From positions 1 to 32,943 of the forward strand of contig NZ_LXFF01000037.1 of assembly GCF_001655775.1 (NCBI RefSeq): a DNA stretch of 32,943 nucleotides, in the 5' to 3' direction. Below the pieces are notes generated by a model. It did no database searches and was not told the origin of the DNA. It saw only the letters and a list, made by a program, of their open reading frames with translations. The stretch comes from Candidatus Arthromitus sp. SFB-turkey (GTDB lineage: Bacteria; Bacillota; Clostridia; Clostridiales; Clostridiaceae). The position numbers and the translations under genes are program-made. Shown piece by piece: positions 6,786 through 9,700 of this stretch. Position 1 is the first letter of the stretch. Each line of letters begins with the position of its first letter.

Positions 6786-7560
6786 TTTATCAAAAATTAA
6801 TAAAAGATATATAGGGTCTTTAGTGATTGTTCCAATAATTATTTCACTTATTGTAGGTGGTTTATTATTAAAAGCTATGATTCTATGTATTACAATATTT
6901 TCTTTAATAGAGTTTTCAAGTGCTTTGAAATATAAAAAAATAAATGTTAATAAATATTTGATTATATTTTTTACAATAATATATTATATTGTGGGATTTG
7001 AGTATGTAGATATATTGGTTTTTATGTTTTTTATTTTTTTGTTGTTATATACATTGAATAAAAATAATAATATTGTAGATATAAGTTTAAGTTTTATATC
7101 TATTTTTTATATAGTAATTCCATTTAGTTTTATTTTTATTTTAAATGAAAAAAATAATTATTTATCTTGGATTATATTTTTAAGTGCTTGGAGTACGGAT
7201 ACTATGGCTTATTTTATTGGTAAAAATTTTGGTAAACATAAAATAAGTCAAAATATTAGCCCAAATAAAACTTTAGAAGGTTTTATTGCTGGTGTTATAA
7301 GTTGTGTTTTAGTTATTTCAATATATGGTTTTATATTTAATGATAAGTTAAACATATCAATTTTAAATTTAGTTTTTCTTAGTATTTTTACTGGAATTGT
7401 AGGTCAAATAGGAGATCTGATTGCCTCATCAATTAAAAGATTTGCAGAAATCAAAGATTTTGGGAACTTAATTCCTGGACATGGAGGGATTTTAGATAGA
7501 TTCGATAGTATATTGATGATATCTATTGTTGTGTTTGTTTTTTCACAAATTTTAATGTAA
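6775..7560 (+). CDS. cdsA: Phosphatidate cytidylyltransferase (CDP-diglyceride synthase)
   Basis: Integral membrane enzyme that makes CDP-diacylglycerol from phosphatidate and CTP, the branch point for phospholipids. The 261 residues contain about seven to eight hydrophobic segments, very rich in I/F/L. The C-terminal signature is intact: SSIKRFAEIKDF, then PGHGGILDRFDS with the metal-binding aspartates. pgsA, near 30.0 kb, uses its product. The ATG overlaps the end of uppS by 11 nt and has GGAAAGG upstream. In most clostridia dxr lies between cdsA and rseP, but here only 11 nt separate them. Confidence 0.96.
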   Translation: MKTDLSKINKRYIGSLVIVPIIISLIVGGLLLKAMILCITIFSLIEFSSALKYKKINVNKYLIIFFTIIYYIVGFEYVDILVFMFFIFLLLYTLNKNNNIVDISLSFISIFYIVIPFSFIFILNEKNNYLSWIIFLSAWSTDTMAYFIGKNFGKHKISQNISPNKTLEGFIAGVISCVLVISIYGFIFNDKLNISILNLVFLSIFTGIVGQIGDLIASSIKRFAEIKDFGNLIPGHGGILDRFDSILMISIVVFVFSQILM

Positions 7561-7571
7561 AGGAGTATTAA

Positions 7572-8609
7572 ATGAATAATTTATTTGTAATACTTTTAGT
7601 TGCGTTAAGTTTTGGATTGCTTATAGTTGGGCATGAATTTGGTCATTTTATCGTAGCTAAGATGAATGGAGTAAAAGTTGATGAATTTGCCATAGGTATG
7701 GGGCCTTTAGTTTGTAAGTTTAAAGGCAAGGAAACAATGTATTCTTTAAGACTTTTACCAATTGGTGGATATGTTAAAATGTTAGGTGAGTATGACGATT
7801 CCGATAATGAAATTTCTGAGGAAGATAAGAAAAGAGCATATATATTTAAACATCCTCTTAGAAAAATATCAATAATTTTAGCCGGACCTGTAATGAATTT
7901 TATTTTGGCATTTATTATATTTTGGGGGTTAAATATTTTTGAGGGATATAATTCAACTATAATTGGTGAAGTTGTTGATGGAAGTCCTGCGCAAAATGCT
8001 GGATTAGAAGTTGGGGATGAAATTACTGCTTTAAATTCAAAAAAGTTTTTAAATTGGAGCGATTTTGTTTTTGAGTTGCAAAATGTTAAAAATAAAGAAA
8101 CCATAAATATAAAAGTTTTGCGAAATAATCAAGAAATGGAATTTAATATTAATCCTGAAATAAATGGTAATTCTATTATTATTGGAATTAAACCAAAGTT
8201 CATTGAAAATGCAGGATTCTTTGAAAGTATATCTAATGGATTTAAAGAAACTATTTCTGAAATAAAACAGGTAATAGGATCATTGGTTTATTTAATTACA
8301 GGTAAAGCTTCCTTTAAAGACTTAGGAGGACCGGTGACAATATTTAAGGTATCTGGTCAGGCGGCTAAAGCGGGATTTGCAGAACTTATGAATTTTACGG
8401 CATTTTTAAGTGTGAATCTTGGAATATTTAATTTAATACCATTTCCTGCTTTAGATGGAGGAGCTGTTATAGTTAATTCAATAGAATTAATTACTAGAAA
8501 GAGAATTAAACAGGAAATTCTTGCAAAAATTAATTATGTTGGTTTTACATTATTAATTTTGCTTATGATATTTGTTACTTTAAAAGATATCTTTTTTCCT
8601 ATAGTGTAA
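7572..8609 (+). CDS. rseP: Site-2 intramembrane metalloprotease RseP/RasP
   Basis: Zinc protease that cuts transmembrane segments within the membrane, acting on anti-sigma factors, signal-peptide remnants and division proteins in relatives. The 345 residues start with a membrane helix containing HEFGH (H21, E22, H25), the zinc site. A PDZ domain follows (about 120-195, GEVVDGSPAQNAGLEVGDEI). A membrane helix with NLIPFPALDGG supplies the third zinc ligand. A final hydrophobic helix ends the protein. The ATG has an AGGAG Shine-Dalgarno. Family and length are clear; the substrate here is unknown. Confidence 0.95.
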   Translation: MNNLFVILLVALSFGLLIVGHEFGHFIVAKMNGVKVDEFAIGMGPLVCKFKGKETMYSLRLLPIGGYVKMLGEYDDSDNEISEEDKKRAYIFKHPLRKISIILAGPVMNFILAFIIFWGLNIFEGYNSTIIGEVVDGSPAQNAGLEVGDEITALNSKKFLNWSDFVFELQNVKNKETINIKVLRNNQEMEFNINPEINGNSIIIGIKPKFIENAGFFESISNGFKETISEIKQVIGSLVYLITGKASFKDLGGPVTIFKVSGQAAKAGFAELMNFTAFLSVNLGIFNLIPFPALDGGAVIVNSIELITRKRIKQEILAKINYVGFTLLILLMIFVTLKDIFFPIV

Positions 8610-8651
8610 AGTTGTAATTATTATTTTTAAGTTAAAAGGAATGATTTATAA

Positions 8652-9700
8652 TTGAATAGAGTGTTAAAAAAAAAGTTAAAATAGGGACTAAATTTATTGG
8701 TGAAAATAGTCCTATTGCAATCCAATCTATGACTAATACTAATACAAAAAATATAGATGATACAATTAAGCAAATAAACGATTTAGAAAAAAATGGTTGT
8801 GATATAGTGCGTGTAGCTATTACAGATAGTTATGAAGCATCGTGCATACCTAAAATAAAAAATTCAACTAATATACCTTTAGTTGCAGATATTCAATTTG
8901 ATTATAGGTTAGCTATAGAATGTGTTAAAAATGGGATTGATAAAATTAGGATAAATCCAGGGAATATAGGAAATCAAGAAAAGGTAAGAGAAGTTGTTAA
9001 TGCGTGTAAAGAATACAATATCCCAATAAGAATCGGCGTTAATGGTGGATCTTTAGAAAAAGATTTATTAGAAAAATACAAGAAGAAAACTACAGATGCA
9101 CTTGTTAAAAGTGTACTTAGAAATGTTGAGCTTCTAGAAAAATTCAATTTTAATGATATTGTTATATCGGTTAAATCTTCAAATGTTAAGATGATGATAG
9201 AATCTTATACTAAAATTTCAGAACTTGTTAACTATCCTTTACATTTAGGTGTTACTGAAGCGGGATTGTTTTTATCTGGAGCTGTGAAGTCCAGTATTGG
9301 TATAGGAACTCTTTTGTATAATGGAATAGGTGATACTATAAGAGTTTCTTTAACAGATAATCCTATTAATGAGGTTAAAGTTGCTAAAGAGATTTTAAAA
9401 TCTTTAGATTTATATAAGAAGGGTGTTAATTTAATTTCTTGCCCAACTTGTTCAAGAACAAAATTTAATCTTATAGATTTAGCGAATCAAGTAGATGAGT
9501 TAACTAAAAATATTGATAAGAATATAACTATTGCAGTTATGGGATGCGCTGTTAATGGTCCAGGAGAAGCGAGAGAAGCTGATATTGGAATTGCTGGTGG
9601 AAATGGTGAAGGATTAATATTTAAAAAAGGTAAAATTCTTAGAAAAGTTAAGGAAGAAGAGTTACTTGAAGAATTAAAAAAGGAAATAGAGTCATTGTAA
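8652..9700 (+). CDS. ispG: 4-hydroxy-3-methylbut-2-enyl diphosphate synthase, with apparent frame change at an A9 run
   Basis: Iron-sulfur enzyme of the MEP isoprenoid pathway, converting methylerythritol cyclodiphosphate to HMBPP. The TIM-barrel body is intact, and so are the three 4Fe-4S cysteines (codons at 9440, 9449 and 9545, in SCPTCS and MGCAVNGPGE). The N-terminus is split. A TTG at 8652, preceded by AAAGGA, encodes MNRVLKKK, which fits the basic IspG start. It then runs into nine A (8666-8674) and stops at a TAG. The expected continuation VKIGTKFIGENSPIAIQSMT is in the neighbouring frame starting at 8675. One extra A (or two fewer) would join them. The in-frame ATG at 8729 would remove the conserved strand ending in QSM and has no Shine-Dalgarno. 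RNA-polymerase slippage, a sequencing error or early pseudogene decay could each explain this. Confidence 0.85.

Follow-up and report, generated by a model that had tools for sequence, protein, structure and literature searches.

The start codon and the enzyme-coding body of ispG in the turkey segmented filamentous bacterium (SFB) stand in different reading frames, which meet at a run of nine A, and the gene as assembled is one base short of a continuous frame. On balance we favor a real one-base contraction that is rescued by slippage of RNA polymerase, perhaps helped by ribosomal -1 slipping, and we hold this explanation with slightly better than even confidence. The window, the whole 32,943-nt stretch of DNA analyzed here, is contig C37 of the 41-contig turkey SFB genome. 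A preliminary description of the window had reported the split and proposed poly-A transcriptional slippage as its remedy. The features at the 5' end of ispG are collected in Table 1.

Table 1. Features of the ispG frame break, in window coordinates
Feature	Position	Strand	Basis
Shine-Dalgarno AAAAGGA	8634..8640	+	read from the sequence; AAGGA and 11-nt gap kept in both congeneric genomes
ispG start codon TTG	8652..8654	+	homologous to TTG in G001 (L006) and GTG in L034, each continuing in one frame
Start-frame ORF, 10 codons, then TAG 8682-8684	8652..8684	+	direct reading
A9 run, one base short as compared with a continuous frame	8666..8674	+	direct reading, relatives and run census
A AAA AAG heptamer, a dnaX-type -1 slippery sequence read in the start frame	8669..8675	+	direct reading; tRNA-Lys found is UUU only
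Weakly supported candidate stem-loop with an outer stem of 7 bp, 8 nt past the heptamer	8684..8713	+	folding energy
ispG (GcpE) body frame, accepted start absent before ATG 8729	8660..9700	+	Pfam PF04551, 508 bits; PDB 3noy, E 3.1e-97

Direct reading bore out the arrangement that had been described: the Shine-Dalgarno (SD) sequence, the TTG and the first codons share one frame, the enzyme is in the -1 frame relative to it, and the two meet at the run, whose length in the assembly is exactly nine A. AAGGA (8636-8640) is followed by a gap of 11 nt to the TTG, after which the start frame reads AAT AGA GTG TTA AAA AAA AAG TTA AAA TAG. The body frame is closed upstream by a TAG (8657-8659), continues as AGT GTT AAA AAA AAA GTT AAA ATA GGG and, as had been claimed, has no ATG, GTG or TTG until the ATG at 8729. 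The conserved N-terminus indeed belongs to this frame. When the body frame was read from 8660, positions 2-342 of the GcpE profile were matched, with the match running from 8669 on, whereas only positions 22-342 were matched from ATG 8729. The best solved IspG structures likewise align with the protein no earlier than the residue coded at 8669: counted from 8660 in the body frame, the alignment starts at residue 4 for 3noy and 4mwa and at residue 6 for 2y0f and 4s38. The defect is one indel within a run of at least nine A/T in a gene that is otherwise intact, the form looked for in a frameshift bridged by slippage.

The turkey genome (G000) was compared with two congeneric genomes, one assembly per species: G001, a single contig of 1,515,556 bases that we take to be the rat SFB, and G002, a MAG. 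The leader in G001 reads TTG GAT AGA ATT TTA AAA AAT GAG GTA AAT and that in G002 (L034) reads GTG GAT AGA ATT TTA AAT AAA AAG GTT AGA; each runs in one frame into the enzyme. In both genomes AAGGA lies 11 nt ahead of a TTG or GTG that is homologous in place to the turkey start, and a single open frame follows. Since the relatives keep the same start, the same spacing and one frame, turkey ispG is one base short. An ATG at 8641 was rejected as the start; it is absent from L034 and leads into the enzyme in neither relative. Among the three genomes, each represented by one assembly, the break is private to the turkey SFB, so the relatives cannot decide between a real break and an artefact. A pattern scan of viral contigs gave no matches. 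In a Clostridium MAG (L072:1906-2000), the start and the body of ispG are in different frames with no long A run at the break. The ispG leader of Peptoniphilus timonensis JC401 (L047:1906-2000) is one A short, with A7 as compared with A8 in P. phoceensis (L035); the 454 platform is known for homopolymer errors, and this shortfall is probably a sequencing error and a cautionary parallel. Passages of the genome report of this strain give 454 reads at 35x (PMC3570796).

Runs of nine or more A are depleted inside SFB genes. Genome-wide, 26 sense-strand runs of at least nine A were recognized in turkey genes (25 in the census plus ispG) as compared with approximately 130-138 expected, and 22 in rat genes as compared with approximately 83-97 expected. 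The genome-wide census set against scaled synonymous nulls thus gives an approximately fivefold depletion in turkey and fourfold in rat. The nulls were built by synonymous shuffling within genes, using 214 decoded genes (66,587 codons) from the sample and the window for turkey and 171 decoded genes (57,440 codons) for rat. Shuffling predicted 18.6 ± 3.1 runs of at least nine A for turkey and 11.0 ± 2.5 for rat, and a second null, conditioned on the preceding base, gave 19.7 and 12.8. A8 runs are at or slightly under expectation (44 seen and 45.9 expected in turkey, 23 and 31.8 in rat), and A7 runs are mildly low (125 and 152 in turkey, 68 and 95 in rat). The 20-kb stretches of the sample were chosen outside the A9-centred stretches and contain no A or T run of nine or more, so that their observed count is unusable and the raw contrast of 1 seen versus about 19 overstates the depletion. 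Based on the fivefold depletion, runs of this length are slippage-prone in the turkey SFB and nine is a slippage-relevant length there; replication slippage could contribute to the depletion. Passages of Baranov et al., who compared the run-length distributions of 108 genomes, report that for a large share of them the limit lies at nine (PMC1088944).

For G000, G001 and G002, respectively, the pattern census counted 55, 33 and 20 runs of exactly nine and, once matches were grouped, 13, 4 and 4 longer runs. The analysis of breaks covers all the listed turkey and rat sites. Turkey has 71 distinct A/T sites of at least nine, 28 of them inside a decoded gene; ispG, which the decoder starts at 8729, is outside these. 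The decoder is based on codon usage, misses breaks near a start codon and missed ispG itself. "Two broken" below therefore means two recognized, and the other A-run genes are called "intact" on the strength of a single decoded frame rather than of homology.

The two recognized breaks among the 26 turkey genic sense-strand runs are in ispG and rae1/yacP. The latter (G000:C11:17333, L140:4706; PF05991, 151 bits) is split at A9-G and shares with ispG the phase NNA AAA AAA AAG with the remainder in -1; its orthologues in rat and in the MAG each keep a single frame. Two of the 22 rat runs are also broken, one at A9T in a Fumble/CoaW-type pantothenate kinase (L096:2412, PF03630 match to the second half) and one at A9C in an ORF with no Pfam match (L090:1496, G001), whose remainder is in -1. 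All four breaks are one A short. In 212,540 nt of turkey coding sequence away from runs of at least nine A, the decoder flagged no break with at least 10 codons on both sides; three links were flagged there, each with four codons or fewer on one side, and one of them is the tail of the coaW pseudogene. The A9-centred stretches gave nine links in turkey and two in rat, several of which are overlapping or adjacent genes or N gaps, and the 20-kb stretches of rat gave two links, accounted for by two adjacent ribosomal protein genes and a transporter tail. The rat site L180 was scored as a shift.

Several further candidates were set aside. Turkey coaW, a type II pantothenate kinase (L194:6400-7300, G000:C23), carries stops in its frame, has lost its N-terminus and is frameshifted, and the decoder called overlap starts inside it. 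The coaW copies were dropped as further support since the turkey copy is a true pseudogene and the rat copy may be one too. The transporter-like ORF before turkey coaW also looks frame-broken. A spoIIAA-like gene (named by eye) at T9 (L141) was rejected as a near-start break because a TTG start lies at SD distance. In a turkey primase-like gene (dnaG by eye; L089 near 1287 and 1588), NN gaps shift the frame in the assembly.

The best-surviving alternative is an error in the consensus or a mixture of strains, in which the true in-frame length (ten A, or nine A followed by GG) would give an ordinary ispG. We give it a serious but clearly minor share of belief. The site is a single base away from a continuous frame, and the breaks are tied to the hardest class of runs, as the 212,540 nt elsewhere indicate. 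The turkey draft, "Candidatus Arthromitus" UMNCA01 (1,631,326 bp in 41 contigs, 26.14% G+C, 60 annotated pseudogenes), comes from a PCR-amplified Nextera XT metagenome library that was sequenced by MiSeq and HiSeq and assembled by CLC at approximately 100x (PMC6979296), and such a library and draft leave room for an error; its raw reads (BioProject PRJNA319431; SAMN13392129) are described as publicly available. That depth of Illumina reads, however, argues the other way, and A10 runs were assembled elsewhere, four of them genic and inside a single decoded frame. An error would require 2 of the 26 genic sense-strand runs of at least nine A to be wrong, a proportion that we judge high for Illumina. 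Against a real break stand its singleton status and the intact relatives; passages of the GeneTack study show its authors treating homology-confirmed singletons as sequencing errors or pseudogene indels (PMC3711429). Should the assembly be in error, ispG would serve as a warning on essential-gene frameshifts in metagenome drafts.

A real break could also be rescued purely by the ribosome, through dnaX-type -1 frameshifting on A AAA AAG with no role for the polymerase. This is a sub-case of the real break, and its confidence overlaps with that of the explanation we favor; taken by itself we find it rather unlikely. The heptamer, which the preliminary description missed, is in the right frame with the body in -1, as in the dnaX type. 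In passages of a study in E. coli (PMC5009743), A AAA AAG is more shift-prone than four other named A or U heptamers, and the sole tRNA-Lys reads both AAA and AAG. Turkey SFB has two tRNA-Lys genes, both UUU and thus a single kind, among 31 of 32 tRNA places read in the draft genome; the published tRNA count is 33 (PMC6979296). Both broken turkey genes carry the heptamer. Among the turkey genic sense-strand runs of exactly nine, both that are followed by G are broken as compared with none of the 20 others, a post hoc contrast (p = 1/231). The heptamer is not a general marker of broken genes, since rat genes break at A9T and A9C whereas the sole A9G inside a rat gene keeps its frame. Genes show no avoidance of in-frame A AAA AAG (25 seen and 23.2 expected in turkey, 26 and 31.7 in rat), so avoidance was dropped as support for ribosomal slipping; AAG in rat is commoner after NNA-AAA (26/57) than after NNB-AAA (45/213).

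The stem-loop that begins 8 nt after the heptamer has an energy of -8.8 kcal/mol, which is reached by 2.1% of 9,502 coding 40-nt windows. Of 3,000 synonymous recodings, however, 9.3% fold at least this stably, with z = -1.07 over 100 nt for the site, and the hairpin was therefore rejected as strong evidence. The rae1 hairpin is not comparable (-2.6). The SD-like stimulator of dnaX lies about 10 nt upstream; by eye, no such element is present upstream in ispG, where only GAATAGAGTG precedes the run. Nor is the dnaX-type arrangement conserved, both congeneric ispG genes being in one frame.

One ispG match was found in G000. The MEP partners checked (dxr, ispH and ispF) are present in all three congeneric genomes and stop-free within the match, with turkey dxr a 400-aa open frame. 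HMG-CoA reductase was found in none of the three genomes, as compared with 5 of 14 controls positive. The usual clostridial place of dxr is between cdsA and rseP; dxr is absent from this place in the window (7560-7572) and was found on contig C28, so the decay of ispG that might be inferred from the missing dxr was dropped. Passages of a study of SFB state a complete MEP pathway for all strains studied (PMC9482736). The pairwise dN/dS is 0.085/1.10 (approximately 0.08) between turkey and MAG, 0.124/1.40 between turkey and rat, and 0.114/1.35 between MAG and rat. Residues unique to turkey, MAG and rat are 19, 13 and 25 of 323, respectively, which argues against relaxed evolution of turkey ispG. 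The gene is thus retained under purifying selection, in agreement with what had been surmised from its intact cysteines, and needed. With a sole ispG found, three intact partners, no HMG-CoA reductase found and purifying selection, decay of ispG is unlikely.

Recent inactivation, either as a new pseudogene or with function from a downstream start only, accordingly receives very little of our confidence. Genuine decay does exist in this genome, as coaW shows, but ispG evolves without relaxation and belongs to the sole isoprenoid route observed, and a start at 8729 loses 21 profile positions and has no SD. Least credible of all is termination at TAG 8682 with re-initiation in the body frame at the overlapping AUA 8681, as the AUAG overlap does join the stop to a near-cognate codon but AUA start codons are very rare, no SD lies at the right distance and the protein would lose part of its first conserved strand.

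In the real contraction rescued by slippage that we favor, turkey ispG would have lost one base in its lysine-rich leader, leaving A9. RNA polymerase would slip on A9 and a share of the mRNAs would gain one extra A, and ribosomes starting from TTG 8652 on the ten-A mRNA would read MNRVLKKK-VKIGTKFIG. Additionally or instead, a -1 slip of the ribosome at the in-frame A AAA AAG may lead to this protein. The transcriptional slippage of the preliminary description stands as the leading explanation based on the depletion of runs of at least nine A, the second A9 break in the same direction, the sign of the defect and the need for the gene. What does not stand is its exclusiveness: because the in-frame A AAA AAG yields an identical protein, the transcriptional and the ribosomal slip are inseparable by sequence. 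We infer from these patterns that the nine A are genuine in the DNA, that slippage occurs and that the polymerase is the likelier machine.

Passages of a study in E. coli and Buchnera report that 80% of the insertions made in transcription add a single base, that insertions climb exponentially as runs lengthen, and that over all sequence in E. coli transcriptional deletions outnumber insertions (PMC5574713). Rescue by poly-A slippage is indeed known in AT-rich symbionts, as had been stated: passages of the Blochmannia vafer report describe eight genes frameshifted in this way and 153 poly-A tracts of at least nine within genes, and mention approximately 30% full-length transcripts in earlier work (PMC3017870). 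The turkey rate of 2 in 26 is of the same order, a point against an assembly error. A more daring idea, to which we attach a low probability, is that A9-G sites serve turkey SFB in decoding a handful of genes, the essential ispG among them: an A added by the polymerase (+1) and a -1 slip of the ribosome would converge there on one protein, and the efficiency of recoding next to the start codon would set the level of this Fe-S enzyme. A literature search gave no paper combining segmented filamentous bacteria with transcriptional slippage, and, in one of four papers that mention Arthromitus and a frameshift, the passages deal with matters other than frameshifts in SFB.

If the favored explanation is true, poly-A frameshift rescue would reach beyond the endosymbionts of insects to an immunologically interesting gut symbiont of a vertebrate, and a second look would be needed at some of the 60 annotated pseudogenes. 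The site would also be a natural one for comparing transcriptional and ribosomal slippage.

A slippage-rescued ispG is likely another case of a known phenomenon and not a new kind. It resembles the rescued poly(A) frameshifts of Buchnera and Blochmannia in that an AT-rich, host-restricted symbiont carries an essential-type gene that is intact except for a single A-run indel. The likeness is closer still for dxs, given in passages on B. vafer as one of the eight genes (PMC3017870) and belonging to the MEP pathway as ispG does. In contrast, turkey SFB is a Clostridia-type vertebrate gut symbiont, its break is at codons 5-8, and it has 26 recognized genic runs of at least nine A, whereas Blochmannia has 114-153 genic poly-A tracts. 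With E. coli dnaX, turkey ispG shares the start-frame heptamer, a shift toward -1, tRNA-Lys genes that, among those found, are all UUU, and a possible downstream hairpin; unlike dnaX, it has no SD-like stimulator, its hairpin is statistically weak, its site is next to the start codon and the arrangement is unconserved in relatives. In Thermus thermophilus dnaX, a nine-A run gives mRNAs in several frames, according to passages of PMC1088944. Whereas slippage there makes an extra short product, ispG would need slippage for its only functional product.
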